This document shows, in pieces, positions 5,195-49,483 of a stretch of DNA of 64,000 nucleotides. The notes under the pieces are model-generated. The model was not told where the DNA came from. It saw only the letters and a program-made list of their open reading frames with translations, and ran no database searches. This stretch comes from Litoreibacter meonggei (lineage in GTDB: Bacteria; Pseudomonadota; Alphaproteobacteria; Rhodobacterales; Rhodobacteraceae), in assembly GCF_003663885.1 (NCBI RefSeq), contig NZ_RCCE01000003.1, positions 1 through 64,000 of the forward strand, given 5' to 3'. How positions within the stretch are numbered: position 1 is the first letter of the stretch; the number at the start of each line of letters is the position of its first letter. The position numbers were made by a program, and so were the translations under genes.

Positions 5195-5864
5195 TTCAAT
5201 TGGAACTGGATCCGCCGCGCGAAAACACCCTGTCTGCAAGCTTTAGCAGCCATTGGTCCGCCCGCAGCGAACGGCAACAAAGTCACGCGACATGTGAGTT
5301 CGTGCACCGTGCAGCGAAAGGTCAGCTTGAGATCCGGCGCGGTTGACCCGTTTGAACGGCCGCTTCGGTTAAATATGCTGCGCCGCCAAACAACCATCGC
5401 CGCGGTTGCGAACAGATGCTGCGTCAGCAATAGCCGCGTGTGCACAAGTCCGGTTTGTCCCGCATAGCTACCATCGATTCGGGAGGTATTTAGAGGCAGC
5501 TTTGGACCCAAAATCCCGATGATAGTGGATATCGGAAACATCATCGGACAGCTAAAAGGATCACCTCCTTACGAAACCGATTACACTAGAAGGGGTTGCG
5601 CCGAGCCATAGAAGTCTCGCCCTTTGGTTGAGTCACAGTATCAGTCATGACAGATGACAACGTAACAAAACCCGCTGGAGCGTGAAAACTTGGAATGACC
5701 ACCAGTGCAAACTATAGGTCAAAATATCTACTTTAGTAAATTTATTAACTGCAAATTGACTTGCACACCTGCGCTATGCAAGGGTTTCTTAAGCCGTCTT
5801 TGCCGTTATGCGATACGTGGCATCGACGTTGGCGGATGTACGGGTTCAATATCGGGGAGGATAG
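5195..5864. repeat. Gap with decayed intergenic repeat and the upstream region of the phosphate-ester transport operon
   Basis: No gene seen. The stretch 5335-5480 contains repeat words GAACGGCCGCTT (also near 44087), GATGCTGCGTCAGC (also near 34685) and TTGTCCCGCATAGC. The right end (5720-5800) is AT-rich and promoter-like. It contains the inverted repeat CTTGCA / TGCAAG at 5760-5765 and 5777-5782, a possible site for the LacI protein encoded at 13294. That last assignment is weak. Confidence 0.4.
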
Positions 5865-5918
5865 ATGAAAACCCTTAGAGCGGCGGCTTCCAGCTTCAGC
5901 GTTTTGGTTCCCAACTGA
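5865..5918 (+). CDS. Short leader ORF (17 codons) coupled to the ABC permease
   Basis: A strong ribosome site (GGGGAGG at 5854-5860) precedes ATG 5865. The frame codes for 17 residues beginning MKTLRAAASSFSVL, which looks like the start of an export signal, and then stops. Its TGA overlaps the ATG at 5918 of the permease frame by one base (TGATG). It may be a leader peptide that couples translation, or the remnant of a deleted binding-protein gene. The downstream permease has no comparable ribosome site of its own. Confidence 0.4.
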   Translation: MKTLRAAASSFSVLVPN

Positions 5919-7750
5919 TGCGGGTCAAAACACCCCTTGCTTCGCCTGACGACAAGCCGTCGTGCACTCAAGCTATGCGTTACAAGATGAAGCTGACGAT
6001 GCGCGAGCCGACGACCGCAGTTGGTTTTGTCGTCGCGATTATCTTCGCTTATCTCATCCTGCTTCCCGTGCTGTCGATCCTTCTAGACGCCGTGAAAGTC
6101 CAACTTGGCGATGCCCGGCGCATTGGCGGGGAGGTTGGGGATGGAACGCTTTACTACCTGCATCGGACGTTCCTTAGCCCCGTTGCGCAGAATTTTTTCT
6201 GGGGGCCACTGAAGAACACACTGTCCGTCGCGCTCGGTGCGATCTTGCTATCTTTCCTCATAGGCACGCCGCTTGCATGGCTGCTAAGCCGCACCGACAT
6301 GTTCGCGCGCCGCTGGTTCGCGACCGCTTTGATCGTGCCATACATGCTGCCATCATGGACCTTTGCTCTGGCTTGGACGACCTTATTCAAGAATCGTACC
6401 GTTGGTGGCCAACAAGGATGGCTCGAGGCGATGGGCATGACGCCGCCTGACTGGATGTCTTACGGGCAATTCCCGATCACCATTATTTTGTCGCTGCACT
6501 ATGCGCCGTTCATCATTTTGCTGCTGGGCAACGGGTTGCGCCGTTTGGACAGTCAACTGGAGGATTCAGCACGGATCCTTGGTGCTACACGCGGACAGAT
6601 CGCGGTTCAGATCCTATTGCCGCTGATGCGCCCGGCGCTGTTTTCAGCGGCGTTGTTGATATTTGCCAAGTGCCTTGGCGATTTTGGCGTGACTTATGTA
6701 CTAGGACTGCCCGTGCAGTTCGACGTTCTAGCGACATCGCTCTACCGCTCCATTGGATCGCGTCAGACAGGCGTCGCAGGAGTTCTTGCAGGGTCGATCA
6801 TGGCTATGGGGATCGTCGCGCTGCTGATCGACGCATATGTTGTGCGCGAGGCGCGCCGGTTCGTGACCGTCGGGTCCAAAGGGTCGATGGACCGCAAGTC
6901 CCAGCTGAAGAAATGGCGCATCCCCGCGACCGGATTTGCCGCCGTCATCTTTATAATCAGTGTCGGCTTGCCGGTCCTGACACTGACGCTTTCAACCATC
7001 ATGTTCGTGCCGGCAAAGTTCACTTTGGATAATTTCACTCTGCAATACTGGATCGGCACAGACCTTGAAACCGTCGCGATGCGCACCGGTATTTTATTGG
7101 CGCCGGATATGTGGTCTGCGGCATGGAATACCTTGCGCATTGTCGGTACGGCAGCGGTTTCCGCCGGATTCCTCGGGCTGCTCGTAGGCTATGTCGTGGT
7201 GCGAACGCCTTTCCGGCCTTTGTCGACCTTCCTGAGGCATGTGACGTTCCTGCCGTATCTGGTGCCGGGCATCGCTTTTGCGGCCGCTTACCTATCGCTG
7301 TTTGCCGTATCGCACGGTCCGGTGCCGGCACTGTATGGCACCACTGCGATCCTGATCCTTGCGCTGACAGCAGATCAGATGCCCTATGCCTCACGCGCCG
7401 GGATTTCGGCGATGATGCAACTCGGCAAGGAGCCGGAAGAAGCGGCGCAGGTCGCTGGTGCCGGTTGGGTGCGTCGCATGAGGTCCATTGTGATCCCAAT
7501 CCAGAAGCGTTCGCTGGTGACCGGTGTCCTTCTGCCGTTCATTTCGGGCATCAAGGGGCTCAGTCTTTTCGTCATGCTGGCTGTCCCAAGTACTGACGTT
7601 CTGACGACCTACTCGCTCCGCCTGATTGACTACAACTACACGCAGGCCGCGAATGCCGTGGTCCTTATCATCGCGGCGGTGGCCTATTTTGGCACACTTC
7701 TGGCGCAGCGTCTGACGAATACAAATCTTGCTGAAGGTCTGGGGGGCTAA
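5918..7750 (+). CDS. ABC transporter permease, fused two-domain FbpB/AfuB type
   Basis: A 610-residue inner-membrane protein with about twelve helices and two permease halves. Each half has an EAA-type loop that contacts the ATPase: LEDSARILGATRGQIAVQIL near 210-230 and EEAAQVAGAGWVRRMRSI near 507-525. This fused layout is typical of importers called iron(III) transporters, a family that also carries hexose phosphates, phosphonates and other small anions. The first membrane helix begins near residue 33, so translation may start at Met20, Met24 or Met28 rather than at 5918. It is first in an operon with ATPase, binding protein and three phosphatases. Confidence 0.9.
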   Translation: MRVKTPLASPDDKPSCTQAMRYKMKLTMREPTTAVGFVVAIIFAYLILLPVLSILLDAVKVQLGDARRIGGEVGDGTLYYLHRTFLSPVAQNFFWGPLKNTLSVALGAILLSFLIGTPLAWLLSRTDMFARRWFATALIVPYMLPSWTFALAWTTLFKNRTVGGQQGWLEAMGMTPPDWMSYGQFPITIILSLHYAPFIILLLGNGLRRLDSQLEDSARILGATRGQIAVQILLPLMRPALFSAALLIFAKCLGDFGVTYVLGLPVQFDVLATSLYRSIGSRQTGVAGVLAGSIMAMGIVALLIDAYVVREARRFVTVGSKGSMDRKSQLKKWRIPATGFAAVIFIISVGLPVLTLTLSTIMFVPAKFTLDNFTLQYWIGTDLETVAMRTGILLAPDMWSAAWNTLRIVGTAAVSAGFLGLLVGYVVVRTPFRPLSTFLRHVTFLPYLVPGIAFAAAYLSLFAVSHGPVPALYGTTAILILALTADQMPYASRAGISAMMQLGKEPEEAAQVAGAGWVRRMRSIVIPIQKRSLVTGVLLPFISGIKGLSLFVMLAVPSTDVLTTYSLRLIDYNYTQAANAVVLIIAAVAYFGTLLAQRLTNTNLAEGLGG

Positions 7751-7751
7751 C

Positions 7752-8873
7752 ATGCCAACAATCGCACTTAGTCAGGTCAGGAAGACCTATCCCGGATCCT
7801 CTACCGATGCGGTACGGTCGCTGGACCTGGAAATCGCTGATGGTGAATTCATGTGTCTGTTAGGGCCATCGGGCTGTGGTAAGACGACAACACTCAGGAT
7901 GATTGCTGGGCTGGAAAACCTATCAGCCGGGGAGCTGAGGATCGGCGACAGGGTGGTCGACAGCGCAGTTGAGTCAACGTTTGTGCCGCCAGAAGACCGC
8001 AAACTTGGTCTTGTATTTCAAAGCTATGCGCTTTGGCCGCACCTGACCATCGAACGCAATACCGATTTCGGATTGCGTTTGCGTAAAGTGCCCAAAGCGG
8101 AGCGCATCAAGCGAACCGATGACGTGATGCGCGCGCTTGGGATCGAACAATACCGCGATCGCTATCCTTCGCAACTGTCAGGTGGGCAGCAACAGCGAGT
8201 AGCGTTGGCGCGCATGCTGGCGGTTAGTCCGGGCGTTTTGTTGCTGGACGAGCCATTGTCAAACCTTGATGCGCGGTTGCGGCTGGAAATGCGCGCCGAG
8301 CTGAAACGCATTCATGGCAAATTTGGAACCACGATCGTTTTCGTCACCCACGACCAATGGGAAGCAATGACGCTGGCCACTACGATTGCGGTGATGAACG
8401 ACGGCGTAATCCAGCAGATGGGCACGCCCGACGACATCTATGAACGCCCCGCCAACCGGTTTGTAGCGGAATTCGTCGGCTCGCCACCAATAAACCTGAT
8501 TGAACAGAACGCGAAGACGCCAATTGCTGCGGCGATTGACAGCTATCTGGACGGTCGGCTGCACGATGTCGGGGCCGTGGCGCTTACAGGTATCCGGCCG
8601 GAAGCGATTGTTTTGCACACCGATGCCAAAGATGTTCCGCAAGACAGTTTCAATCTCCGCGCAGAGATCGAAGGGGTTCTGCCAACCGGCGGCAGTTGGA
8701 TCGTCGAAGTTCGCGCGGGGGGGCAATTGCTTTTTATGACAACCCATGTAGCCCCAACCCTGTCGGCAGGGGACGATGTTACGATGGTCGTCGAGCCCGC
8801 CGCTTTTCATCTCTTCGATACGGATGGGCAACGGATGCTTAACGCCGACAAAGCGCTAGGACGCAGCGCCTGA
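7752..8873 (+). CDS. ABC transporter ATPase, FbpC/PotA type
   Basis: A 373-residue ATPase with Walker A GPSGCGKTT near residue 38, signature LSGGQQQRVALARM, Walker [13 protein letters not shown] and the switch His in VTHDQWEAMTL. The Trp after DQ replaces the Glu usual in this family. A C-terminal TOBE-like regulatory domain follows from about 240. The start MPTIALSQV directly follows the permease stop (TAACATG), so the genes are tightly coupled. It powers the importer formed with the neighbouring permease and binding protein. Confidence 0.92.
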   Translation: MPTIALSQVRKTYPGSSTDAVRSLDLEIADGEFMCLLGPSGCGKTTTLRMIAGLENLSAGELRIGDRVVDSAVESTFVPPEDRKLGLVFQSYALWPHLTIERNTDFGLRLRKVPKAERIKRTDDVMRALGIEQYRDRYPSQLSGGQQQRVALARMLAVSPGVLLLDEPLSNLDARLRLEMRAELKRIHGKFGTTIVFVTHDQWEAMTLATTIAVMNDGVIQQMGTPDDIYERPANRFVAEFVGSPPINLIEQNAKTPIAAAIDSYLDGRLHDVGAVALTGIRPEAIVLHTDAKDVPQDSFNLRAEIEGVLPTGGSWIVEVRAGGQLLFMTTHVAPTLSAGDDVTMVVEPAAFHLFDTDGQRMLNADKALGRSA

Positions 8874-8884
8874 TGAAAACCACC

Positions 8885-8910
8885 GCCAAAGACGTGGAAG
8901 CTTCTTTGGC
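8885..8910 (+). other. Intercistronic hairpin before the binding-protein gene
   Basis: A perfect 8-bp inverted repeat GCCAAAGA / TCTTTGGC (8885-8892, 8903-8910) lies between the ATPase stop and the binding-protein gene. No T-tract follows. It could act as an RNA processing or stabilising hairpin that lets the binding protein be made in excess. Confidence 0.45.
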
Positions 8911-8976
8911 ATTGTACTCTTGCATCACTGGGTCATCGACCCGGCGGCAAGGCCAACACGAAAGGGAGAAATAACA

Positions 8977-10104
8977 ATGAGAATTATCGACAGGACACGC
9001 ATCGCGACGACATCGGCAAGTTTCGCCGCCCTGCTAGCAGGCAGCCTTGGCATGGCGCATGCACAGGATTTCGACCTCGACGCGTTGATCGAAGCCGCGC
9101 GCGCCGAACCGCAGCTGACGGTTTTTGACAGCACCGGCAAAATCAAGACAATGGCCGAAGCTTTCTCGGCCAAATACGGTATCGACGCTGTCGGAACCAA
9201 GATGAAGGCCCCAGCCCAGATCGAGATGTTTGACCGCGAAGCGCGCGCCGGAAATGTTCAGGCGGACGTTGCAATCATTTCGGATGCCTCCGCTGTTATC
9301 GCCCAGTTAATCCCGACCGGCGCGGTCACTAGCTGGTCGCCACCCGACTTGGCCGACAAGATCGATCCAGACTATCAGAACCCGCTAGTTGTCGTCGCCT
9401 CGGCCAACCTATGGACCTACAACACTGAGCTCTATGACTCTTGCCCAGTCTCCAATATTTGGCAACTGACTGAATCCGAATGGAAAGGCAAGGTTGCGAT
9501 GCAGGATCCACTGCGAAATCCTGGACTGACCAACTGGTTCAACCAGCTTGAAATGCATCACGACGACAAGGTCGCGGCCGCCTATGAAGCGCAATACGGC
9601 AAGCCGCTGGACAGCGACGCAGGCAGCGCAACTAAGGCTTGGCTGAAGGCGCTCGGTCAGAACGCGCCATTGCTGGGATCCTCCGACAGCGCGGCTGCTG
9701 AATCCGTTGGAGCACCGGGCCAAAGCGAGGGCTTCATGGGGCTGATGGCGTCCGCCAAGTATCGCGACAACGCAGATAGCGATTACAAGCTGGGTCTGTG
9801 CGATGGCATCAAACCGTTCGTTGGCTTTACCAGCGTTAATGTCGGGGTAATTGCAACAGGGTCGGACAGCCCGAATGCGGCCAAGCTGTTCTTGCATTAT
9901 GCGATGACACCTGAAGGCATCGCACCGCAAAACAACGACGGCAAGATGTCTTCCAACTCTGACGTGGGGTTGCCCGCTGACGAGGCATCGGGCGTTGGAA
10001 ACGTCTTGGATCAAGTGCAAAACTACCGCATTTCCTCCGCGGCAGATGACTGGGAGACTCGCCAGGACTGGCAGGATTTCTGGCTGCTGAACTACAGCCG
10101 CTGA
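8977..10104 (+). CDS. Periplasmic solute-binding protein, FbpA/AfuA superfamily, substrate probably a phosphorylated organic
   Basis: A 375-residue protein with a signal peptide ending at AHAQ near residue 29, then a type-2 periplasmic fold. The first strand-loop LTVFDSTGKIKTM holds a Ser-Thr-Gly-Lys cluster suited to bind an anion. Iron-binding FbpA proteins have a pair of adjacent Tyr ligands; no Tyr-Tyr pair occurs anywhere here, which argues against iron. The closing segment DFWLLNYSR resembles DFWLIHSSQ in the second such protein at 32026-33279. GGGAG precedes the ATG. The genes that follow are phosphatases, so I infer import of a phosphate ester. Confidence 0.85.
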   Translation: MRIIDRTRIATTSASFAALLAGSLGMAHAQDFDLDALIEAARAEPQLTVFDSTGKIKTMAEAFSAKYGIDAVGTKMKAPAQIEMFDREARAGNVQADVAIISDASAVIAQLIPTGAVTSWSPPDLADKIDPDYQNPLVVVASANLWTYNTELYDSCPVSNIWQLTESEWKGKVAMQDPLRNPGLTNWFNQLEMHHDDKVAAAYEAQYGKPLDSDAGSATKAWLKALGQNAPLLGSSDSAAAESVGAPGQSEGFMGLMASAKYRDNADSDYKLGLCDGIKPFVGFTSVNVGVIATGSDSPNAAKLFLHYAMTPEGIAPQNNDGKMSSNSDVGLPADEASGVGNVLDQVQNYRISSAADDWETRQDWQDFWLLNYSR

Positions 10105-10236
10105 TCATTTCCCCACCTTTCGGGACGATACGAGTCAATCACTCTGTATTTAGGGTTCGCGTCCTTCGCGTCTCCGGGCTTATCTCAAGTTCGGGGAGGC
10201 GGGTTTCAAACTGTCGTCACACCTAGGAATACACTC

Positions 10237-11076
10237 ATGTCACAGCAACCAGAGCCTCTTGATCACGGCGCGTTGAAAGCGCGGGCTGAATTTTGTCGCG
10301 ACTTGATCGCGAGCGCATCAGCGCTTGCACTGGAAGGGTTCAACAACCGCAACACAGGTGCCAGTGAACGTAAGGGGCCGCAGGATTTTCTGACGGAAAC
10401 CGATGGTGCGGTCGAGCGGCACATTCGTGCACGCATAGCCGAAGCTTTCCCTGAAGACGGCTTTATGGGAGAAGAAACCGGTGGCGCGCCGACAGCACGC
10501 GTCTGGGTGGTTGATCCTATCGACGGAACCGCGAACTTCGCACGGGGAATACCACATTTCTGCGTCTCCATCGCGTTTGTCGCTGACGGGGAAATCAAGA
10601 TCGGGTCAATCTGCGCGCCCGCAACTGACGATCTGTATTTCGCGCAAGCGGGGCAAGGTGCCACCCGCAATGGTGCACCTATCCATGCAGCAAAGACGGA
10701 AGATTTTGATGCTGCCTGCGTTGAGCTTGGCTGGTCGGGGCGAGTTCCGCAGGACCGGTACTTGAAAATCCTGACCGGCATTCTCGATTTGGGGGCCAAT
10801 GTGCGGCGTGGTGCCTCGGGCGCGATGGGTTTGGCCTATGTCGCCGATGGGAGATCCGACGCCTATCTTGAGCTGCACATGAATGCTTGGGATTGCCTCG
10901 CGGGTCTGCTACTGGCGCAAGAAGCCGGTGCGCGAATCTGTGATTTCCTAGGAGACGGCCCGCTTGAGGGTGGCGGACCGGTCATTGCCAGCGTCTCGGC
11001 ACTTGCCGACCAGTTAAGCGATGTCAGTGGGCTTGCCTTAGCACCTGCCGCGCGCGATCTCGCGTACGCTACTTGA
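10237..11076 (+). CDS. Inositol monophosphatase family phosphatase
   Basis: A 279-residue cytoplasmic enzyme with the metal-binding signature of the IMPase superfamily: FMGEETGG (Glu79/80), VVDPIDGTANF (Asp93, Asp96) and NAWDCLAG (Asp219). Family members remove phosphate from inositol-1-P, histidinol-P, PAP or sugar phosphates with Mg2+. No signal peptide is present, so it acts inside the cell. It lies 132 bp behind the binding protein and just before two more phosphatases. The likely role is dephosphorylation of the compound brought in by the ABC importer; the exact substrate is open. Confidence 0.9.
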   Translation: MSQQPEPLDHGALKARAEFCRDLIASASALALEGFNNRNTGASERKGPQDFLTETDGAVERHIRARIAEAFPEDGFMGEETGGAPTARVWVVDPIDGTANFARGIPHFCVSIAFVADGEIKIGSICAPATDDLYFAQAGQGATRNGAPIHAAKTEDFDAACVELGWSGRVPQDRYLKILTGILDLGANVRRGASGAMGLAYVADGRSDAYLELHMNAWDCLAGLLLAQEAGARICDFLGDGPLEGGGPVIASVSALADQLSDVSGLALAPAARDLAYAT

Positions 11077-11129
11077 GTCAGACACGACTCGGCGTCGTCG
11101 ATTACACGCCGTTCCAGAAAGGATGCCAG

Positions 11130-11759
11130 ATGGGCACAGCACATTACGAACGACCTGCGATTAACCTAATCGAAGAAAACGTGACCCCGTTTGACGTCGC
11201 GCTTTACATTGGCGGGCGTGAAGGCACTGCCGATTTGCCGCTCCTGAAGAAGCACGGAATTTCCATCGTCGTGAACTGTGCGGTGAATCTGGATCTCAAC
11301 TATGTCCTGACGGAGGAACCATCCCACATTGATGCCCCGGTTCCTTATGGGCACGGCGCGTTGCGGTACTACAAGATCGGCTTGGTGGATGGGGCGGGAA
11401 GCCCGGCGTCGATGATGCTGGCCGGCTACTACATTCTGCGCGGTGCGCTGGTGCAGGAAATGCCGGATCGCCCCAGCTACCCCCATCGCGAACGAGGGAA
11501 TATTCTGGTCAATTGTCGTGGCGGACGCAGTCGATCGACGGCCTTGGTCAGCCTGTTCCTGCACAAATCCATGCCGAATACCTATCCGACCATGGAAGCG
11601 GCCCTTGCCCATGTCCGCGAACGGCGAGAGTTACGCCCGGACGAATGGCACGAAACACCGAAACAAGTTCTGGTCGATGCAATAAAGCAAGCGTCGGATT
11701 GGATTGACATGATCGGTCACGATGATGTGCCACGCTATGATGGAAAAGGCACGGAATGA
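11130..11759 (+). CDS. Dual-specificity / tyrosine-phosphatase-like Cys phosphatase
   Basis: A 209-residue protein with the CX5R signature of Cys-dependent phosphatases: VNC129RGGRSR135S. The His that normally precedes the Cys is Asn. A candidate general acid is Asp87 in GLVDGAG, at the usual distance before the P-loop. I chose ATG 11130, with an AGAAAGGA ribosome site, over a TTG at 11073 that overlaps the previous gene. Relatives act on phosphotyrosine or on non-protein substrates such as inositol phosphates. Its place among transport and phosphatase genes favours a small-molecule phosphate ester. Confidence 0.82.
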   Translation: MGTAHYERPAINLIEENVTPFDVALYIGGREGTADLPLLKKHGISIVVNCAVNLDLNYVLTEEPSHIDAPVPYGHGALRYYKIGLVDGAGSPASMMLAGYYILRGALVQEMPDRPSYPHRERGNILVNCRGGRSRSTALVSLFLHKSMPNTYPTMEAALAHVRERRELRPDEWHETPKQVLVDAIKQASDWIDMIGHDDVPRYDGKGTE

Positions 11760-13297
11760 CCTCGCAATGGACGGGACAGGTCGCCGTTCTGGCCGATCCG
11801 CATCTGCATGATGTAGCTGCCGGTCGTGCCTATGGGCTGGTTCACGAAGATTGTTTTCGCAGTTTGGCGGACACGGCCTCATCGACCCGAGTGTTCAATG
11901 AGGGCGGTGTAGCGTTGGTTCGTGCATTGGACATACTGGTGGAACATGGCGTGCGACTGGTGATGATCGCAGGTGATCTGACCGATGATGGCCAACCAGC
12001 AAACTGGAATGCCGCTGCCAGTCTATTGCATAAATATACGCAAAAATACGGGATGAGGTTCTTCCTGACGCCGGGCAATCACGATCAATGGTATGGTGAC
12101 GGCAAGGCGCTGAAAAAAGGGATGGTAACGCGAGACGGAGTTATCTTTGCTGTTGCTGGCGACCCATCCGAACCAAGCGCTGTCCACGCCCCCGCGATGC
12201 GGCAAGTCGGACAGGCGGAGATGCTGGACTATGCGCGTTCATTTGGATTTTGCCGTCACGACGACGATCTGCATTGGGAAACGCCCTTCGGAGCGTCCAA
12301 CGCTTTGGTGGATAGGATTGGAGCCCTAACGGGTTCGGATGGTAATCCGGTGCTGGTCCCTGATTTGTCCTATCTAGTAGAACCGGTGGCTGGGCTGTGG
12401 ATTCTGTCGGTGGACGCCAATGTCTACCTGCCCGGCACCGATGGATGGGTCGATTGTGGGCAACAGGGCTGGAACGCTGTTCTGCGCCACAAGGCATGGT
12501 TGTTGGACTGGATGCGCGACGTCGCCGCACGGGCCAAAGTGCAGGGCAAGCAGCTTTTGACCATGTCACATTTCCCAGCGATCGATCTGCTGAACGACGT
12601 GTCCGGCGGGCTGGCTGAACGGGTGATGCCCACGCACTTAACCGCAGATGCCACCACAGCAACGGGCGTGGGCCTGCATTTCAGCGGGCATTGGCATATC
12701 AACCGCACGGGCGCACGGCACTGTGACAAGGACTGGTTGGTGAATGTGGCGGTTCCGTCGACCGCAAGCTTTCCTGCCGCCTTTAAGTTGGTCAATCTGG
12801 AGCTGACCTCTGCCTGCATTGACACCGTTCAGCTGGGACAGGTTCCGGGCTTCGATGCGGGCTTTGCGCATTACCTTGCCGAGCAGCCCAATGCGACGCT
12901 TCCGCTAAGTGAAAGCTATGCCGATTTTTTGCGGGAACATCTGGATGAGCTCACCGGTCGGCGGTATCTGGCGCGTGATTGGCCCACCGAATTCGGGGCG
13001 CGGCTAGAGAGGGAAACGCTGGCAGATATCCTAACGCAAACAGGGCGCAACGCAGATAGTGCCACGACAAACATTCCCGCACGGCTGGCAATTGACGACT
13101 ATTACTTCTTGGAGCGTGGTGGGCAGCTTGCCGAAATTCCGGCTGAACGTTTGTGCCTCTACATGGCACTTGATCCGGCCGAGCCAATCAAAGGCGGTGA
13201 CAGCCAAAGACGCCTGATCATGGGATTGGCACGCTATAGTCAGGCACTTCCGGATGACAAATTTTCAGTAGATTTGGCCAATGGCTCGGTCACTTAA
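11756..13297 (+). CDS. Calcineurin-like metallophosphoesterase
   Basis: A 513-residue enzyme with all metallophosphoesterase motifs: VLADPHLHD (Asp14, His16), IAGDLTDDG (Asp74), TPGNHDQWY (Asn108, His109), a later MSHFP and FSGHWHIN. It uses two metal ions to split phosphomonoesters or diesters, including cyclic ones. The C-terminal 200 residues are less conserved and may shape the substrate pocket. No signal peptide. Its ATG overlaps the previous stop (ATGA). A diesterase here together with two monoesterases would suit stepwise breakdown of an imported phosphodiester. Confidence 0.9.
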   Translation: MTSQWTGQVAVLADPHLHDVAAGRAYGLVHEDCFRSLADTASSTRVFNEGGVALVRALDILVEHGVRLVMIAGDLTDDGQPANWNAAASLLHKYTQKYGMRFFLTPGNHDQWYGDGKALKKGMVTRDGVIFAVAGDPSEPSAVHAPAMRQVGQAEMLDYARSFGFCRHDDDLHWETPFGASNALVDRIGALTGSDGNPVLVPDLSYLVEPVAGLWILSVDANVYLPGTDGWVDCGQQGWNAVLRHKAWLLDWMRDVAARAKVQGKQLLTMSHFPAIDLLNDVSGGLAERVMPTHLTADATTATGVGLHFSGHWHINRTGARHCDKDWLVNVAVPSTASFPAAFKLVNLELTSACIDTVQLGQVPGFDAGFAHYLAEQPNATLPLSESYADFLREHLDELTGRRYLARDWPTEFGARLERETLADILTQTGRNADSATTNIPARLAIDDYYFLERGGQLAEIPAERLCLYMALDPAEPIKGGDSQRRLIMGLARYSQALPDDKFSVDLANGSVT

Positions 13298-14316
13298 CGC
13301 GGACGCACCGTGTTGCGCCAAATCGGCATGGTCTTTAACGCGATTTCACGCCCAACGCCGCCCAACGGCGGATCGCCCAATAGGCGCCCGATCTGTTCCG
13401 CAATCTCGGTAACTGGCTGCCGAAATGTTGTCAGTCGGTAGGAAGTCCATTGCGCTTGCTCAATATCGTCAAATCCGATCACGCAAAGATCGTTGGGTAT
13501 GTTCAGTTGAAATTCCTGCCTCGCAGTGTCCATGAAGCCAAGTGCCAGTATATCCGTAACGCAAAACGCCGCATCCGGTGTCGATGCGCGTCCAAAAACT
13601 CTGCGCGCGGCTTCTGCCCCCGTGGCATAGCTGGTAGGGCCGACGGCTACGATCTCCACCTCGTCACCAATCGCCTTCGCTTTGGCGACATAGGCCAGTT
13701 CACGAGCCGCGAGGCTTGGTGTCAGACTGGTCGAGGAAACAACGACATGGCGACGACAGCCGGCCCGCTTGTTAAGTCGAACTGCCTCGGTTGCTGCTCC
13801 TTCGTTGTCGATTGAAATTCGGTCGGCACCGTCGCGTCGCTCGCCGCGGTTCAGAAGGATGACGTGCTGACCATTTGCCAGACAAGTATCAACTAGGTCG
13901 TATGAAGGTTGGCCGGACAATACGATCGTGGCCTCGGCCCTAAAATTCAGACTTTGCGTTAGGGCTTGTGCCGCACCGTCGTCAACACCGTCGGCGTTGA
14001 TAACCAGTGCTACGCGGCCTGAGGCCTGGAGAACCCTAATTATCTCGTCCATCATACGCGACTGATAGGGATTGCTGACGGATCGAATGACCAGCGACAC
14101 GATGTTAGTGCGGTCCGCCAAAAGCCCGCGAGCAAGGTGGTTGACATGATAGCCTAGCTCTTTTGCCGCCGCGATGACCTTTTGTCGGGTTTCGGGTGAA
14201 ACACTGCCGCCATCGGAGAATGTTCGTGACACGGCAGATCGGGAAACGCCTGCCAATTCCGCAACCTTCAGGGCGCTTACAAAACCCTTATTATGCACCT
14301 TCGTGGGATTCTTCAT
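13294..14316 (-). CDS. LacI family transcriptional regulator
   Basis: A 340-residue protein. The N-terminal LacI helix-turn-helix is KVAELAGVSRSAVSRTFSDGGSVSPETR, followed by the hinge and a periplasmic-binding-protein-like sensor domain. Motifs such as NIPNDLCVIGFDDIEQAQW and TTFRQPVTEIAEQ are typical of the family. Effectors are normally sugars, cyclitols or nucleosides. It meets the metallophosphoesterase tail to tail with a 4-bp overlap, and most likely represses the transport-phosphatase operon. That supports a phosphorylated sugar or cyclitol as the substrate. An imperfect inverted repeat CGCTGGTGA / TCGCCAGCG (14336-14344, 14372-14380) upstream could be an autoregulatory site. Confidence 0.9.
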   Translation of the reverse strand: MKNPTKVHNKGFVSALKVAELAGVSRSAVSRTFSDGGSVSPETRQKVIAAAKELGYHVNHLARGLLADRTNIVSLVIRSVSNPYQSRMMDEIIRVLQASGRVALVINADGVDDGAAQALTQSLNFRAEATIVLSGQPSYDLVDTCLANGQHVILLNRGERRDGADRISIDNEGAATEAVRLNKRAGCRRHVVVSSTSLTPSLAARELAYVAKAKAIGDEVEIVAVGPTSYATGAEAARRVFGRASTPDAAFCVTDILALGFMDTARQEFQLNIPNDLCVIGFDDIEQAQWTSYRLTTFRQPVTEIAEQIGRLLGDPPLGGVGREIALKTMPIWRNTVRPR

Positions 14317-29078: not shown

Positions 29079-30914
29079 TTAAGTTGTGTTTAGTCGCCCT
29101 ACGCCGGCGCTGCGTGACATCACACGAACAATGACGCTGATTATGATGATGATCAGTACCAGCATCAAAGTCACAGCGCTGGAATGCTGTGCCATGTCTT
29201 GTTCTTGGTAGCCAAATATTAGGCCTGTCAGAACCATGTTGCCCGGTGAAATCAGCAAAATAATCAACGATAGCTCCCGCATAGCCGTAATGAACGTCAA
29301 CAACATCCCCGCAACAACCCCGCTCATGGATAAAGGAATGATGATGCGGAACATGCGCCTGAACCAACCAATTCCTTGAACCCGCGCGGCCTCTTCTAGC
29401 GATTGGTGAATCTGCAAAATTGCTGCAATTCCGGTGCGTGAGGTGAAGGGCAAGTTCTTGATCACCGTTATCAGGATCAAAATAGTGAATGTGCCATAAA
29501 GCGCCGGAACAGGGCCGATACTTGTGGAGAACATGCCGATATATATCGCGCCGAGTGCGATGGACGGGAAGATATACGGGGCGAATGCGATTGCTTCCAG
29601 CCATTGTGATAAGCGTTTTCCGCGCCCGCGAACCACTGCATAGCCAACCAATAGGCCCAACACACCGTTGAATAATGCTGCCGCAAACCCAAGCTTTATA
29701 GAATTGATCAAAGCGCCCATGATGCCTTTGTTGTGGATTACGCCGGGCTCGCCGTAGGCTAAATTCACATTGCCTTGCCCGACCCAAAAGTAGGTCGTCA
29801 GATTGGAAAGGCTGTAATCTCCGGGTATGAGTGTGAGCGATTCCCAAAGCAGCAAAATTAGCGGCAAGGCGACGGTCATGCACAGGAACAGAATCACAAA
29901 TACGGTCGCAGGCCAGCGCAGTTTTCCAAGGTCGCTTTCGTGCTTGCGAAAGCCTTTGCCCGTCATGGTCACATAACTTTTGCGCACGCCTATAATGCGG
30001 CTATTGATCCAGATGAACGAGATTGCGAGAACGATCAATACCAGTGCCAACACAAACGCATCACCTTGGTTGCGCGCGTTGATGGAGGCATAGATTTGCG
30101 TCGAGAATGTAAAGAAGCGAACCGGAAGGCCTAGCAATGCAGGCGTTCCGAATGTCCCCAAAATGCGAATGAATGTCAGCACGATGGCCGATCCGATGGC
30201 CGGCATCAACAGTGGCATGGTGATCACGCGGATGCGCTTCCATTTGCCCATGCCGCTTGTCGCACCCGCTTCCTCAAGCTCGCTGTCGACCGTTGCCAAG
30301 GCTCCAGAGATCAGCAGATAGGCGTAGGCATAATAATGCAACGCCAGCGTGATCACGATCGGAAATAACCCGTAGGCCACCCAGTCAGGTGCTTGCGTTC
30401 CGGTCCAATAGGTCAGCAGCCCCTCGGACCCGCCAACACGGTCATTTTTGAACAGGCTTAGCCATGCAATTGCCATCACCCATGACGGCATCATATAGGG
30501 AAACACCAACATAGCACCGAAGACGCCTTTGAAATGGACATTGGTTCTGACCATCAACCACGCAAGGGAAAACCCAACTGTCAGCGCAATCACAGTGACG
30601 AAAAATCCCATCTTAAGACTGTTGACCAGCGGCTTGTAAAACAGCGCCGCAGAAATGGGCTGGTTAAAAACGCGATCCAGATGGAATAGCGTGAACTCGC
30701 CTACAACCCCGTCTGGATTGTAGGCAAGATCATAGCTCTGGAACGTAAAAGCATCTTTGATGATTTGCAGCAACGGCACCAATACGACGAAGCTTAGGAA
30801 TCCAAGCGCCAGAAGCCCGATGATCAATTCCGGTCGGTTTTTCAGCCGGTAAGCTTGATACGAGATGTTTTGCAAAGACCAAAACGCCGGTTTACCGCTG
30901 TCTGCCATTGCCAT
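29079..30914 (-). CDS. ABC transporter permease, fused two-domain FbpB/AfuB type (second system)
   Basis: A 611-residue inner-membrane protein with about twelve helices and two permease halves. The EAA loops are ELEEAGATSGMGKWKRIRVI and SLEEAARVQGIGWFRRMFRI. It is the same architecture as the permease at 5918-7750, but clearly diverged. I place the start at ATG 30914 (MAMADSGKP), just after the ATPase stop, rather than at 30962, which overlaps that gene by 44 bp. It completes the second iron-type importer of the window. Confidence 0.9.
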   Translation of the reverse strand: MAMADSGKPAFWSLQNISYQAYRLKNRPELIIGLLALGFLSFVVLVPLLQIIKDAFTFQSYDLAYNPDGVVGEFTLFHLDRVFNQPISAALFYKPLVNSLKMGFFVTVIALTVGFSLAWLMVRTNVHFKGVFGAMLVFPYMMPSWVMAIAWLSLFKNDRVGGSEGLLTYWTGTQAPDWVAYGLFPIVITLALHYYAYAYLLISGALATVDSELEEAGATSGMGKWKRIRVITMPLLMPAIGSAIVLTFIRILGTFGTPALLGLPVRFFTFSTQIYASINARNQGDAFVLALVLIVLAISFIWINSRIIGVRKSYVTMTGKGFRKHESDLGKLRWPATVFVILFLCMTVALPLILLLWESLTLIPGDYSLSNLTTYFWVGQGNVNLAYGEPGVIHNKGIMGALINSIKLGFAAALFNGVLGLLVGYAVVRGRGKRLSQWLEAIAFAPYIFPSIALGAIYIGMFSTSIGPVPALYGTFTILILITVIKNLPFTSRTGIAAILQIHQSLEEAARVQGIGWFRRMFRIIIPLSMSGVVAGMLLTFITAMRELSLIILLISPGNMVLTGLIFGYQEQDMAQHSSAVTLMLVLIIIIISVIVRVMSRSAGVGRLNTT

Positions 30915-30918
30915 GGAG

Positions 30919-32010
30919 TTAACCCACCTTGTTGCGCAGATTTTCCTGCGTGTCGGTGTCAAAGAAGCTTAAGGACTCGGGATCAAATTGCAGCCATAGC
31001 TCGGTGCCTGCAGGCAACGTCATGAACCCAGGCTGCATCAATGTGATTGGCGTATCGCCTACCTTGACCTCAACGATTGTATTGGCTCCCGTTGGTTGCA
31101 AAATCTCGGTCCGCGCTTTGAGCCAGCCGTCTTTTGCAGTCTCAGACACGTGCATCTTCTCAGGCCGAATGCCTGCGATCAAATCGCCGCCGTGCCGGGC
31201 AATGGCGTCAGGCAGAGGAATTGAGACGGCCCCGCAATCAAGCACCCCGTTGGCAATCGTACCATTGAACAGATTGATCCCCGGGTCACCAATGAACTCG
31301 GCGACAAAAATATTCGCGGGATGATGGTAGATGTCATAGGGCGAGCCCTCTTGCATAATTCGCCCGTCGTTCATGATGATCACGCGGTCCGACAGGGTTA
31401 ACGCTTCGATCTGGTCATGGGTCACATAAACCGTTGTCGCCTCAAGATCACGGTGCAGCCGCTTGAGGCTTGCACGCATCTCTGTGCGCAATTTGGCATC
31501 AAGATTGGACAGCGGCTCGTCCATCAACAAAATCGACGGTCGCAAAGCAATCAATCGTGCCACCGCGACCCTTTGCTGCTGCCCGCCGGACAATTCAGAA
31601 GGGTAGCGTCCGGCGTAGCCCGTTAGCTGCACCATCTCCAACGCATTTTCCAACCGCCTTGCGATATCAGCTTTGGAGATATTTTGTTCCTTCAAAGCCA
31701 ATGTAATATTCTTGGCCACAGTCATATGCGGCCACAATGCATAGCTTTGAAAAATCAACCCGAGGCGCCGCGCTTCGGGCGGGATAACCACGCCGTCTGC
31801 GCGCGAGAAAACCACGCGCTCCCCGAGTTGAATATTCCCTTGGTCCGGCTCCTCCAACCCTGCAATCATGCGCAGGGTTGTGGTTTTGCCGCAGCCGGAT
31901 GGCCCAAGTATGGTCAGGAATTCACCCGGCTGAACTGTGAGGTCGAGGTTCTTGACCACGACCTCTTTGCCATAGGACTTTACGATCCCATCAAGACGTA
32001 TTTGTCCCAT
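30919..32010 (-). CDS. ABC transporter ATPase, FbpC/PotA type (second system)
   Basis: A 363-residue ATPase with Walker A GPSGCGKTTTLRM near 34-46, signature ELSGGQQQRVAVARL, Walker [14 protein letters not shown] and switch VTHDQIEALTL. A C-terminal TOBE region contains LIAGIRPEKMHV. It lies 15 bp after the binding-protein gene and directly before the permease, one operon in the order binding protein, ATPase, permease. The first system in this window has the order permease, ATPase, binding protein, so the two were not made by simple local duplication. Confidence 0.92.
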   Translation of the reverse strand: MGQIRLDGIVKSYGKEVVVKNLDLTVQPGEFLTILGPSGCGKTTTLRMIAGLEEPDQGNIQLGERVVFSRADGVVIPPEARRLGLIFQSYALWPHMTVAKNITLALKEQNISKADIARRLENALEMVQLTGYAGRYPSELSGGQQQRVAVARLIALRPSILLMDEPLSNLDAKLRTEMRASLKRLHRDLEATTVYVTHDQIEALTLSDRVIIMNDGRIMQEGSPYDIYHHPANIFVAEFIGDPGINLFNGTIANGVLDCGAVSIPLPDAIARHGGDLIAGIRPEKMHVSETAKDGWLKARTEILQPTGANTIVEVKVGDTPITLMQPGFMTLPAGTELWLQFDPESLSFFDTDTQENLRNKVG

Positions 32011-32025
32011 CCATGCGCCTCAATT

Positions 32026-33279
32026 CTACTGGCTGGAGTGTATTAACCAGAAGTCACGCAAACGTGGGCCTTGTTCCCACATAAAGTCAGCAGACACGTT
32101 CCAGCCAACCATCTCGTCCCAAATCTCACCGCCCAGAGGCAGCGGTACATCATTCCGCGGGCTAACCGACCCGGCATCATGATACGGGGCCAAACCTTGG
32201 AGCAAATCGAAGCTTGCGCCCTCAATATAGGGCTTCTCCAGCTTGGTCTCTAGCGTGATGTCGGGGCTGCCCAACAGATAGGCGATCAACACTTTGGCCG
32301 CATTGGGGTTTGGTGCATTGGCTCCGATAGACATGAAATTCGGATAGACCATGCGCGATGCCGGATCGAGGTCAGAGATAATCGCGTTCACATTTCCTTT
32401 GTCATCATTGCGCGAAATATAGGTCATGCTCGTCATTGCTATCATCGCATCGTCTTGACCCTTTGCACCAGCGGCATCTGCCAATTTGGAGCCCGATTTG
32501 AAGATCACAACATCATTGGCCAACAAACGGCGCACGAATTCATATCCCGCATCTGGCACTCCGTCGCCCAACACAATGTCCTCGCCTGTCAGACGTTTGT
32601 AGGCTGCCGCCATCTCATCTGGGAACTGCACCAAAACGGCCAAACCCATAAGCGATGATCCTGATCCCATCGGGTCTTTGATCCCAACACGGCCTCGGAA
32701 TTCTTCTTGGGTTAGCTCCCAAACATTGCTGATCGGTGCGCCTTCGGGATAGGTTTCTGTATTGTAGAAAAATACCATCGCCTCGTTCACGCGGATAAGC
32801 AGCGGGTCACGGTTTTCTTCGGGAATCTTGTCTTTAAAATGTGCCGGCACGTAGTTGAATATACGGTTATTGGCCAAAAGTTCATGGATAACTTGTCCGG
32901 AGTTTCCGGTGGTAACGACATCAGCAGTAAAGATACCCGCGTCTTGTTCGCGCACGGTTTTCTCGATGGTCTTAACTGAGCCCAGATCATACACTGTCAG
33001 CGTGATACCTGGGTAAAGTGCCTGAAAATGGTCCACGACTTTGGCGATCCGACCAGACGCGGTGTAGACGGAAACCTCTCCTTCTTCCTTCGCTGCCGCA
33101 ACGATCTCGTCCCAGTTTTCTTCGCCCATCGCATGGGCCCCGAGAGCGTTCTCTTTGAGCCAGGCGTCAAGCTCTGCGGAAACCTCCTGAGCCGACGAAA
33201 TAGAAGCCGTTGATGAAAGCAATGCCACCGTTGCCAAGCGTGTTAGCATTTGCAGGAAATATCGTTTCGTCAATTTCAT
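32026..33279 (-). CDS. Periplasmic solute-binding protein, FbpA/AfuA superfamily (second system)
   Basis: A 417-residue protein with an N-terminal signal segment (about 1-30, ending SISSAQ), then a type-2 binding fold. The first strand-loop EVSVYTASGRIAKVVDHF has the same Thr/Ser-Gly-basic arrangement as the first system. There is no adjacent Tyr pair, so iron binding is unlikely. It ends DFWLIHSSQ, like the protein at 8977. I start it at 33279: GGAGG is then 6 bp away, whereas the ATG at 33285 abuts it. A HAD phosphatase is divergent from it, again pointing to a phosphorylated substrate. Confidence 0.85.
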   Translation of the reverse strand: MKLTKRYFLQMLTRLATVALLSSTASISSAQEVSAELDAWLKENALGAHAMGEENWDEIVAAAKEEGEVSVYTASGRIAKVVDHFQALYPGITLTVYDLGSVKTIEKTVREQDAGIFTADVVTTGNSGQVIHELLANNRIFNYVPAHFKDKIPEENRDPLLIRVNEAMVFFYNTETYPEGAPISNVWELTQEEFRGRVGIKDPMGSGSSLMGLAVLVQFPDEMAAAYKRLTGEDIVLGDGVPDAGYEFVRRLLANDVVIFKSGSKLADAAGAKGQDDAMIAMTSMTYISRNDDKGNVNAIISDLDPASRMVYPNFMSIGANAPNPNAAKVLIAYLLGSPDITLETKLEKPYIEGASFDLLQGLAPYHDAGSVSPRNDVPLPLGGEIWDEMVGWNVSADFMWEQGPRLRDFWLIHSSQ

Positions 33280-33363
33280 CGTCATCCTCCCAGATGTATT
33301 TGTATCGCTCTAGTCTTAAATACTTCTTATTTTACAGGTCTATGAGGCTAAAGAGCCGAATGC

Positions 33364-33536: not shown

Positions 33537-34376
33537 GTGACCCAATATCTAGATAAAATCTCAACGATTGCTTCAAACTACGATGCAATCGTTTTCGACC
33601 AATGGGGCGTTTTGCACGATGGTAGCGCGCCCTATGCGGGTGCGGTCGACTGTCTTGAACAGCTCGCGAACCGCAGCGTCCGTATGGCAGTGCTGTCCAA
33701 TTCAGGCAAACGGAGTGCCCCCAATGCGGCTCGGATCGCAAACAAGGGGTTCGCCACCTCCTTATTTGAATTCGTAATGACCAGCGGCGAGGCGCTGTGG
33801 CGCGACATCGCAAACGCGTCAATTACCGAAGCTCGGTTCTTTCCCGTTGAGCGCGTCGCAGGCGACGCCGCGACGTGGGCTGATGGTTTAGATATCGAAA
33901 TCGAAACTTCGGTGGAAACCGCTCAGGCTATTTTGCTAATGGGGTTGCCCGATGGTGATAGCGCAGATCAGTGGCAAGGCATTTTAGACCAAGCCTACGC
34001 AGCCGCGTTGCCAGTCTATTGCTCAAACCCTGATCTCAAAAGCCCGCGCGCAAACAGCCAGTTGGTGACCTCAGCCGGCACTTTGGCACATCAATATCAC
34101 AAGCGTGGCGGCAAAGTTGTCTTTTATGGCAAGCCTCATCGCCGTATTTTTGACGAGTTAAGAGCAAAGCTTAATGCAGACCGGTTGTTGATGGTTGGGG
34201 ACAGCTTGGAACATGACATCGCAGGCGGGCAAGCTGCTGGCTGGGATACGTTGCTCATCCAAGGCGGGCTTCATGCCGCTGAATTCAGTCACGGATCCCA
34301 TGATGCTGTACTGGCCCGACTGGTTACGGAAAAAAACTGTGAGACACCCACTTACTCTATCGAGAAGTTGAAGTGA
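33537..34376 (+). CDS. HAD superfamily class IIA phosphatase-like hydrolase
   Basis: A 279-residue protein with a GTG start. HAD motif I is VFDQWGVLHDG near 19-29: the nucleophile Asp is present, but the usual second Asp is Trp, as I recall for one alphaproteobacterial class IIA subgroup. Motif II is VLSNSGKRS near 59, and motif III/IV GKPHRRIFDEL ... MVGDSLEHDIAGG near 221-231, where the C2-type cap lies between. Relatives of NagD remove phosphate from small molecules. It faces the operon of the second iron-type importer, whose substrate it may dephosphorylate in the cytoplasm. Confidence 0.83.
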   Translation: MTQYLDKISTIASNYDAIVFDQWGVLHDGSAPYAGAVDCLEQLANRSVRMAVLSNSGKRSAPNAARIANKGFATSLFEFVMTSGEALWRDIANASITEARFFPVERVAGDAATWADGLDIEIETSVETAQAILLMGLPDGDSADQWQGILDQAYAAALPVYCSNPDLKSPRANSQLVTSAGTLAHQYHKRGGKVVFYGKPHRRIFDELRAKLNADRLLMVGDSLEHDIAGGQAAGWDTLLIQGGLHAAEFSHGSHDAVLARLVTEKNCETPTYSIEKLK

Positions 34377-47365: not shown

Positions 47366-48555
47366 GGTTGTTTGCCCGCATTCTGGTCACTGGTGATAAA
47401 TTCGGACCACCTCTCCATAAGCGCTCGCCGTTTATCCAATAGATCAGACCGCGCGTATGCCCTCTCGACGTCCGATCCGACCCTGTGCGCCAAGCACATC
47501 TCTGCCACCTCTCGCGGCGCGTTGGCGACTTCGGACGCCCAGTCGCGAAACGTTGAGCGCAGCCCGTGCACCGTCGCGTCCCCTTTCGTTACTCGGCGCA
47601 GCAACATCAGCATCGACATATTCGATAACGGCCTATTCCGCTTCTGCCCTTCAAACACGAACTCGGAGTTCATCGCGCGCAAGTCTTCGACAATGGAGTG
47701 CATTGGGGATGTCAGAGGAACGCGATGCTCGACCCCCGTCTTCATGCGCTCCGCAGGACAGGTCCACAGACGCGCTTCAACATCCAACTCGTCCCAACGC
47801 ATCTCAAGCACCTCAGTGGTGCGAGCTGCAGACAGCGCAGTAAACATCAGCGCCTTTGCAGCCATGCCGTCGCGCGTGCTCAGCACCTCAAACAGCCCTG
47901 GCATGTTTTGCCAACGAACCGCTTTGTGATGTTTTGGCTTCGCGGATACCCTCGGTAAAACCTGCGCGTCCTTGATTGCCGTCACTGGGTTCTCACCTGA
48001 ACGAAACCCTTTCGATCTAGCCACGTCCAATACGATCTTGATACGCTGAGACAACCGACGCGCAGTTTCGTGCTTCTCGGTCCAGATCGGCGACAAGCAC
48101 ATCAGAACCTCCGGCTGGCCGATACTATCGATTGGCATGCGCCCGATCTTGGGAAAGGCATAGTCACGCAAGGTGTTGATCCATTGCTGCCCATGCTTGG
48201 GGTTCTTCCAAGTCGGCATACGTTCGATATGAACCTGCTGCGCGACCTCCTCGAAAGTCGGGATCTCGCGGGTGGCGGTGAATCTCGGGTTCAGACCTTG
48301 CTTCGCCATGCGCCGGTATTCTAGAGCGCGGTCTCGGGCTTGATTGATTGTGACGATATCTGCCCCGCCCAACCCAAAGTCGGTCCGCAAGGGAGCACCC
48401 TTCTTGTTCTTTTGACCTTTGACAACCACGCGAACAATCCAGCGCCGCGCACCGGATGGATCAACGACCAGATACAACCCGTTCCCGTCGCCATGCCGAC
48501 CCGGTCCAAGGTTCTCTACCAACTTCTTCGTAAGCTTGCCGCCCAGCGCCGCCAT
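47359..48555 (-). CDS. P4-type tyrosine integrase
   Basis: A 398-residue integrase. The N-terminal arm-binding domain of the P4/DUF4102 type is about 5-95 (LTKKLVENLGPGRHGDGNGLYLVVDPSGARRWIVR). The core-binding domain is about 100-195. In the catalytic domain: Arg246 (ALSAARTTEVLEMRW), H330-GLR333, His357 (CLAHRVGSDVERAYAR) and nucleophile Tyr367. It directly flanks the 3' end of tRNA-Ser, the usual target of this family. Two ATACCAC boxes upstream (48561, 48573) could be arm-type binding sites. Confidence 0.92.
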   Translation of the reverse strand: MAALGGKLTKKLVENLGPGRHGDGNGLYLVVDPSGARRWIVRVVVKGQKNKKGAPLRTDFGLGGADIVTINQARDRALEYRRMAKQGLNPRFTATREIPTFEEVAQQVHIERMPTWKNPKHGQQWINTLRDYAFPKIGRMPIDSIGQPEVLMCLSPIWTEKHETARRLSQRIKIVLDVARSKGFRSGENPVTAIKDAQVLPRVSAKPKHHKAVRWQNMPGLFEVLSTRDGMAAKALMFTALSAARTTEVLEMRWDELDVEARLWTCPAERMKTGVEHRVPLTSPMHSIVEDLRAMNSEFVFEGQKRNRPLSNMSMLMLLRRVTKGDATVHGLRSTFRDWASEVANAPREVAEMCLAHRVGSDVERAYARSDLLDKRRALMERWSEFITSDQNAGKQPC

Positions 48556-48660
48556 CTAAAATACCACATTCCATACCACTCCAGAAAAGCATACGAGCAC
48601 TATCGAAAGAAATCGAGGAAAACCGTAAAGTCACAAAAAATCCAATAAAACAAAGCAAAA

Positions 48661-48679
48661 GGGCCGCCCAAGGCGACCC
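48661..48679 (-). terminator. Terminator of the tRNA-Ser gene
   Basis: On the minus strand GGGTCGCC-TTG-GGCGGCCC forms an 8-bp stem with one G-U pair and a 3-nt loop. It is followed by TTTTGCTTTGTTTT, 26 bp past the tRNA 3' end. Confidence 0.75.
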
Positions 48680-48704
48680 AATCAAAGCGACCAAAAATGT
48701 ATGG

Positions 48705-48794
48705 TGGCGGAGACGAAGGGATTCGAACCCTCGAGACCCTTCCGGGCCTACTCCCTTAGCAGGGGAGCGCCTTCGACCACTCGGCCACGTCTCC
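48705..48794 (-). tRNA. tRNA-Ser (anticodon GCT)
   Basis: A 90-nt minus-strand gene. The 7-bp acceptor stem GGAGACG / CGTCTCC is followed by G and an encoded CCA. The D-arm is GCCGAGTGG, and the anticodon stem-loop CTCCC-CTGCTAA-GGGAG has anticodon GCT. A long variable arm typical of Ser follows, then the T-arm GAGGGTTCGAATCCCTT. It reads AGC/AGT codons. It is the likely attachment site of the element to its left. Confidence 0.95.
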
Positions 48795-48953
48795 GCCGAC
48801 CCGTTTAGCGATAGCTCGACAGGGCGGCAACCGAAAATGTGAGAAGTTGCGCAATCGGTTCAGGTCACTCGGTTTATCAACGATTATTCAATGCTCCACG
48901 GGCAAACGCCCGATCAGAACACGCCACCCGCTGCACCCACAACCAACACCCTT

Positions 48954-49283
48954 TCAGGCCGCTATCAGGTTCGCAGGGATGCCGCGACCGGAGATCATCC
49001 CAAGCTCGGCCGTTCGGGCAAGGATAGACCAATAGACCTCTGACGGAGCGCCACTGCGCAGGGCCATCACCTCGTCTGCCTCAACCGTGACGTCAGAGCT
49101 GCCAACCATCAGGGTGCCGCGCAAATAGACTAGCGACGGCAACATCTGCAGACGCTCCACAATCGGTGCCAACACATCAAGGTCTCCGGTCACCAACAGC
49201 GTCGGCCCGGACCGCGCCCCTGTGAGCTGCCACAGCAAATCACAGGGGCGGTCAGCAGACTCAAGCATTTGCACGTCAGACAT
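48954..49283 (-). CDS. Small hypothetical protein
   Basis: A 109-residue protein with an excellent ribosome site (AAGGAGATCTGCC before the ATG), so it is a real gene. It has no signal peptide or membrane helix. Alternating strands and helices are suggested (TLLVTGDLDVLAPIVERLQML, LVYLRGTLMVGSSDVTVEADEV), ending in a Gly/Ile-rich segment. I do not recognise the family. It is transcribed towards the tRNA-Ser gene from a promoter shared with the divergent TPR gene. Confidence 0.7.
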   Translation of the reverse strand: MSDVQMLESADRPCDLLWQLTGARSGPTLLVTGDLDVLAPIVERLQMLPSLVYLRGTLMVGSSDVTVEADEVMALRSGAPSEVYWSILARTAELGMISGRGIPANLIAA

Positions 49284-49483
49284 GGCAGATCTCCTTTGCT
49301 CCGAACGTAAGGACGCAGCAGGAAACGCATCATGGGAAACCGCCGGAAATTTTCCCTCCCGACGACGACTGCACCGGTTGAATCTTCCAAGTCATCGGAT
49401 ACTCTTTTGCAACTATAGCTAACCCGCCTTGGGTTAAGATATTGCCAACGCGAGTGAATCTAGAGACCTCAGAGGCTAATCAA

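Follow-up and report, generated by a model that had tools for sequence, protein, structure and literature searches.

A putative inositol-phosphate importer of the Fbp/AfuA type and its three phosphatases in Litoreibacter meonggei

Genes and conservation of the locus

The first 64,000 nucleotides of contig NZ_RCCE01000003.1 of the marine bacterium Litoreibacter meonggei (Rhodobacteraceae; assembly GCF_003663885.1), here called the window, carry an operon for an ATP-binding cassette (ABC) importer and three phosphatases. An earlier note, made from the DNA letters, proposed that the operon takes up a phosphate ester and removes the phosphate inside the cell, and guessed at inositol phosphates or glycerophosphoinositol. 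Comparative sequence analysis now suggests that the operon probably encodes an Fbp/AfuA-type importer of inositol phosphates coupled to cytoplasmic dephosphorylation. The locus consists of the following features:

5761..5776, strand not assigned: degenerate LacI-type operator TTGCACACCTGCGCTA, with two mismatches to TTGCACANNTGTGCAA and a position weight matrix score of 10.4
5865..5918, + strand: upstream reading frame of 17 codons, read from the sequence, with its own ribosome-site-like GGGAGG stretch; its stop overlaps the permease ATG (TGATG)
5918..7750, + strand: permease with two BPD_transp_1 domains (Pfam)
7752..8873, + strand: ATPase with ABC_tran and TOBE_2 domains (Pfam)
8977..10104, + strand: solute-binding protein of the Fbp/AfuA/MctA fold with a DSTGK loop (SBP_bac_11; AlphaFold2 model; fold matches)
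10237..11076, + strand: inositol-monophosphatase-family phosphatase (IMPase; Inositol_P, 191.5 bits; motifs)
11130..11759, + strand: dual-specificity-type Cys phosphatase (DSPc, 32.1 bits; CRGGRSRS P-loop; VHR-like profile and fold)
11756..13297, + strand: calcineurin-like metallophosphoesterase (Metallophos, 44.7 bits; metal-ligand motifs; best solved relative Lmo2642, 2xmo)
13294..14316, - strand: LacI-family regulator with recognition segment GVSRSAVSRTF (Pfam LacI and Peripla_BP_3)

Six genes, from the permease to the metallophosphoesterase, occupy 5918-13297 on the + strand. The LacI gene overlaps the last of them by 4 bases; it lies outside the operon because it is convergent and on the opposite strand. 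The importer and the three phosphatases of the earlier note are thus confirmed as an operon with all frames open, whereas its LacI member and its "fused" arrangement are not: there is no gene fusion in the window. Translational coupling between the 17-codon frame and the overlapping permease start is possible. All seven genes show a dN/dS of 0.02 to 0.22 in comparison with the closely related Litoreibacter halocynthiae (L003), whose binding protein is 99% identical. An assignment to the 2-aminoethylphosphonate importer PhnS2T2U2 was rejected: PhnU2, the best NCBIfam match of the permease, scored 141.9 bits against a cut-off of 593.25, and the ATPase scored 330 against 457.7.

Scanning bacterial genomes with the binding protein alone found 63 loci, of which 62 were retained after setting aside one with 34% identity (L064); two own-genome loci from a separate search were likewise left out. 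A gene was counted as present if matched anywhere in the locus stretch, and some loci end at contig ends. The binding protein is present in all 62, the permease, ATPase and Cys phosphatase in 61 each, the IMPase in 56, LacI in 55 and the metallophosphoesterase in 43. All seven genes occur together in 42 loci and all except the metallophosphoesterase in 12, which is the conserved co-occurrence that the earlier note had suggested looking for; as the binding protein was the sole query, it exceeds chance. Additional genes are frequent in relatives: further copies of the binding-protein gene in 31 loci, another IMPase in 26 and, in 29 of the 62, a PhoU-domain Na/Pi cotransporter (Pfam; two partial matches). 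An IMPase/Cys-phosphatase gene fusion occurs on Klebsiella plasmids. The Sinorhizobium meliloti pSymB locus (L067) is doubled, with two binding proteins, two IMPases, two Cys phosphatases, a Na/Pi transporter, a metallophosphoesterase and LacI side by side.

With the Cys-phosphatase profile as query, the reverse search matched 4 genomes out of 385 in the class and 12 out of 297 in the order of a Devosia relative. All 13 new loci examined hold Fbp-type permease and ATPase genes, and they belong to at least three importer subfamilies. In one subfamily (L131, L134) the other hydrolase is a metallo-beta-lactamase-fold protein. This second module (L131, L134, L135) comprises an ATPase, a permease, the hydrolase, a Cys phosphatase, LacI and the same operator palindrome; L136 and L137 have a similar set with a presumed hydrolase. 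The window itself has a paralogous Fbp-type importer at 29079-33285 on the - strand, with a binding protein 28% identical to the one studied here, and a divergent HAD-IIA hydrolase gene at 33537-34376 on the + strand (TIGR01459, over cut-off). Importers of this subfamily adjoin a Cys phosphatase in L114 and L115, so the paralogue may import another phosphate ester. Farther along the window (48001-64000), G+C climbs to about 0.58-0.62 and the GC skew goes negative; a tRNA-Ser gene lies at 48705-48794.

Binding protein and phosphatases

The binding protein was modelled by AlphaFold2 with a mean pLDDT of 96.1. Its closest folds are MctA, HitA and FbpA, which would suit a ferric-iron or citrate importer that merely has unrelated phosphatases next to it. 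FbpA-type ferric binding proteins use an adjacent Tyr-Tyr pair as iron ligands. The mature protein has no such pair, as the earlier note had pointed out, and in many genera the phosphatases accompany the importer. Iron import was rejected on these two grounds, the missing pair and the gene context, and the iron or citrate reading as a whole is very improbable. Fold scores fail to separate iron, citrate and sugar-phosphate binders. The Ser-Thr-Gly-Lys loop singled out in the note is a D-S-T-G-K loop following the first strand, and its Lys is invariant in 62 of 62 aligned rows.

The two best solved matches to the sequence profile are VcA0625 and AfuA, titled or published as sugar-phosphate binders; the single window sequence as query gave no solved-structure match up to E 1. 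This likeness favors a second alternative, that the importer takes another phosphomonoester such as a hexose or pentose phosphate, as AfuABC does, that the phosphatases are broad, and that phytase and iol genes were recruited in some lineages only. LacI control is typical of sugar systems, and most loci have no phytase nearby, both of which also fit. AfuA contacts the sugar through His205, Asp206 and Glu229 (PMC4546632). In a low-scoring alignment with an inferred numbering offset, Glu229 stands opposite Thr256, Ser37 opposite Ala and the phosphate contact Thr150 opposite Gly; His205 and Asp206 fall outside the aligned stretches. These replacements, together with phytase and iol links that recur in several branches of the permease tree and in the operators (below), count against uptake of another phosphomonoester, which is considered unlikely.

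The loop that aligns with AfuA Thr150 is a putative ligand loop. At residue 152 the other 61 of 62 rows have Lys and the window protein alone has Asn; its loop, QDPLRNPGLTNWF, is unique among the 62 rows. A further alternative is that inositol phosphates are the ligands of the family but no longer those of the Litoreibacter member, which would have come to import a different phosphorylated compound. The weak window operator, a comparatively long permease branch and a genome without a match to the two phytase families searched point the same way. Set against them are the low dN/dS of all seven genes, the retained DSTGK loop, and the iolGCDEB cluster and IolE of the same genome. Such drift is slightly less likely than uptake of another phosphomonoester.

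The three phosphatases have unrelated folds. The IMPase carries GEE, DPIDGTANF and WDCLAG and the metallophosphoesterase DPHLHD, GDLTDDG, GNHD, SHFP and GHWH; the Cys phosphatase has the C-X5-R loop CRGGRSRS of dual-specificity enzymes. These are the catalytic motifs expected of the three families, with metal and substrate motifs in the IMPase and metal-ligand motifs in the metallophosphoesterase. Alignments comprised 50 of the 61 available Cys phosphatases and 24 of the 43 metallophosphoesterases. The DSPc score of the Cys phosphatase, 32.1 bits, is just below the cut-off of 33.5, and the protein is VHR-like in sequence profile and in fold, the latter from a model of moderate quality (pLDDT 77). 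A Pfam scan returned only DSPc (E 0.001) and no PTP-like phytase domain, for which no dedicated search was made; PTP-like phytases are also absent among the matches listed, which excludes nothing.

The metallophosphoesterase is the sole diesterase-like gene. Its superfamily includes diesterases, and its profile also matches Rv0805, a cyclic-nucleotide diesterase; a diester such as glycerophosphoinositol, cut first by this enzyme, would thus be a conceivable substrate. The gene is found in 43 of 62 loci against 61 of 62 for the Cys phosphatase, and phytases yield monoesters. Nothing specific speaks for the diester guess of the earlier note, and we consider it improbable, more so than the drift of the Litoreibacter member.

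Phytases, inositol catabolism and a shared operator

Phytases of two unrelated folds are found next to relatives of the importer. Devosia sp. Root635 (L029) and D. naphthalenivorans (L038) each have a beta-propeller phytase gene oriented divergently to the permease gene, and in Wenxinia (L009) a shortened beta-propeller phytase frame follows the Na/Pi gene. On Klebsiella plasmids the importer genes come after genes for a KdgM-type porin and a histidine-acid phosphatase (3 of the 4 plasmid records with this phosphatase were viewed). The enzyme is closest to the Klebsiella 3-phytase 2wnh (E 8.5e-82). Genome searches covered 49 importer genomes, from 50 of the 62 loci. Five have a beta-propeller phytase, and in three of the five it lies within the importer locus; the chance of this is about 1e-6, or 2e-4 without the shortened Wenxinia frame.

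Genes of inositol catabolism are found in the same surroundings. In Devosia sp. Root635, iolC-D-E adjoin the phytase and the importer, with iolB and iolG in the extended region; an iolG-like gene is the last one of the D. naphthalenivorans stretch. The Na/Pi gene of Cucumibacter (L053) is followed by iolB-E-D-C, and in Wenxinia an iol cluster lies about 20 kb from the importer. In the window genome an iolGCDEB cluster that looks complete is located elsewhere on this contig, with IolE over cut-off. IolE was located with TIGR04379 (L029/L074, L077), and the other iol names in L029, L053, L074 and L077 come from reading the sequences without a library scan. One of the iolD queries (L077) was cut in the wrong frame, with X at stops; the other was clean. 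Among the 49 importer genomes, that of L. meonggei included, 44 have an IolE match over cut-off, compared with 49 of the 372 class genomes. In the class sample, IolE occurs in all four Cys-phosphatase-positive genomes (Fisher p 0.00027).

A palindrome, TTGCACAnnTGTGCAA, was found de novo upstream of the permease or LacI gene, with scores above 8 in 72 of the 95 regions. Eleven loci, most of them near-duplicates, were left out of the motif search; the motif was trained partly on the same loci, and the shuffled control preserved base composition only. The candidate window operator sits 142 bases upstream of the permease start, and the whole window has two matches to TTGCACANNTGTGCAA with up to two mismatches, against 0.49 expected. 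A search of the L. meonggei genome with up to one mismatch gave a single site, C3:699790, inside a reading frame resembling shikimate dehydrogenase and probably a chance match. One form of the Pho box consensus has 4 matches in the window against 4.48 expected, none of them upstream of 5918. For the family the palindrome points to regulation by LacI and not by Fur, although no search for Fur boxes was made.

The same palindrome is found at phytase and inositol loci. The Devosia limi genome has five sites with at most one mismatch; three of them share a contig with the importer, and the other two immediately precede an unlinked beta-propeller phytase gene. A chromosomal Klebsiella operon with the order LacI-IMPase-MFS-phytase, in which MFS denotes a major facilitator superfamily carrier, has the palindrome before the IMPase gene; its phytase is the crystallised 3-phytase (2wnh, E 2.2e-263). 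The recognition segment of its LacI (L070) is the same as that of the window LacI; the paralogous LacI frames L095, L106 and L100 were left out of this comparison. The cluster spans 4535-9179 in L070 and 4618-9149 in L073 and comprises LacI, IMPase, a GlpT/UhpC-like carrier and the phytase. From its gene content it suggests inositol phosphate uptake by an antiporter-type carrier. An iol cluster of Primorskyibacter begins with iolG, and the palindrome separates this gene from a paralogous LacI gene. L107 and L095 contain further importer clusters in which the palindrome is accompanied by LacI and an IMPase homologue; L095 has iol-like genes as well. A related regulator and palindrome in phytase, importer and inositol loci thus link these loci even where the transporter differs.

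Inositol phosphates are the favored ligands because phytases, inositol-catabolism genes and the LacI operator shared with phytases connect to the importer relatives. The idea of phosphate-ester import with internal dephosphorylation is well supported by the conserved context, and among the note's guesses that of inositol phosphates is preferred. The Na/Pi transporter genes of 29 loci and the sugar-phosphate binders VcA0625 and AfuA as best solved matches also count in its favor. Permease-tree rows with phytase or iol links (L053, L009, L029/L038, Klebsiella) are spread over different branches around that of the window, so that a shared function can fairly be inferred. The tree is a quick one with long branches, in which the Klebsiella and window rows have uncertain positions.

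Several observations weigh against inositol phosphates. Beta-propeller phytases are not clearly enriched (5 of 49 importer genomes against 14 of 372 class genomes, p 0.057), and genome searches, which covered two phytase families and not the PTP-like one, found neither a beta-propeller phytase match in L. meonggei nor a histidine-acid phytase in any of the 49 importer genomes, its own included. Another 15 phytase regions of Alphaproteobacteria in the class sample all lack the importer, though one has iol genes. The Wenxinia phytase frame is without the middle of the domain, and no operator was found in the unlinked phytase region (L094) of the L037 genome. The IolE comparison between importer and class genomes is confounded by kinship. 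Six of the 62 loci have only the importer and the Cys phosphatase, with no IMPase, metallophosphoesterase or LacI, and the palindrome also serves paralogous LacI/importer clusters, some with other hydrolases. The uninformative fold scores, the AfuA phosphate- and sugar-binding residues that are not conserved where the alignment reaches them, the degenerate window operator and Asn152 belong to the same side. The reading is held more firmly for the family than for the window member because of the missing phytase match, the degenerate operator and Asn152.

Proposed pathway and related systems

A phytase outside the cell, from the organism itself or from others, would release lower inositol phosphates from phytate. 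The binding protein would capture an inositol phosphate in the periplasm, and the permease and ATPase would carry it inward. In the cytoplasm the Cys phosphatase, metallophosphoesterase and IMPase would strip the phosphates, and the freed inositol would pass to IolG and the rest of the iol pathway. In the absence of an inducer, which may be inositol or an inositol phosphate, LacI would keep the operon repressed by way of the TTGCACAnnTGTGCAA-type operator. The Na/Pi transporter found in the same cluster in many relatives may discharge surplus phosphate, if it works in that direction. The OPA-like carrier of Klebsiella might meet the same need by exchanging the ester for Pi as GlpT does.

A broader proposal, to which we give somewhat less than an even chance, is a dedicated phytate route for carbon and phosphorus. 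It would combine outside phytases, an importer of inositol (poly)phosphates, the Cys phosphatase as an internal phytase-like enzyme acting with the IMPase and metallophosphoesterase, Na/Pi disposal, and one LacI operator that also controls unlinked phytase genes; the Cys phosphatase would mark a wider class of phosphate-ester importers.

The components come from known families. What appears to be new is how they are combined and which ligand they probably serve. AfuABC and VcA0625, hexose-phosphate importers of the Fbp superfamily, are alike in fold, transporter class and the phosphorylated nature of the ligand (PMC4546632). They differ in having no three-phosphatase operon, their permease and binding protein are only distantly related in sequence, and the AfuA ligand residues are not kept where aligned. 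Ferric importers of the FbpA type share the fold, without their Tyr-Tyr ligands being present here. The chromosomal phytase operon of Klebsiella follows the same logic, with the same LacI recognition segment, palindrome and IMPase, but uses an MFS carrier of the GlpT/UhpC/PgtP group instead of an ABC importer, and its annotated stretch lacks both a Cys phosphatase and a metallophosphoesterase. The IbpA-IatA-IatP importer of Caulobacter likewise feeds inositol catabolism but is described as importing free myo-inositol, on which its mutants cannot grow (PMC2597717). IpsA of corynebacteria is likewise a LacI-family regulator, freed from DNA by myo-inositol, but controls inositol-lipid formation (PMC3899939). 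No fitting description of a bacterial inositol-phosphate importer or phytate operon was found among titles and abstract openings of the openly licensed literature, which does not establish its absence from print.

The system is present in Sinorhizobium meliloti, on pSymB. Phytate, the main phosphorus store of plants, is also a major organic phosphorus store of soils and sediments, and bacteria are usually assumed to hydrolyse its partly dephosphorylated products externally. If the proposed function is correct, the "iron ABC transporter permease" annotation carried by such genes in several records would need correction. Inositol phosphates would then be taken up whole and used as carbon and phosphorus, which could give access to a large pool of both in organic form.

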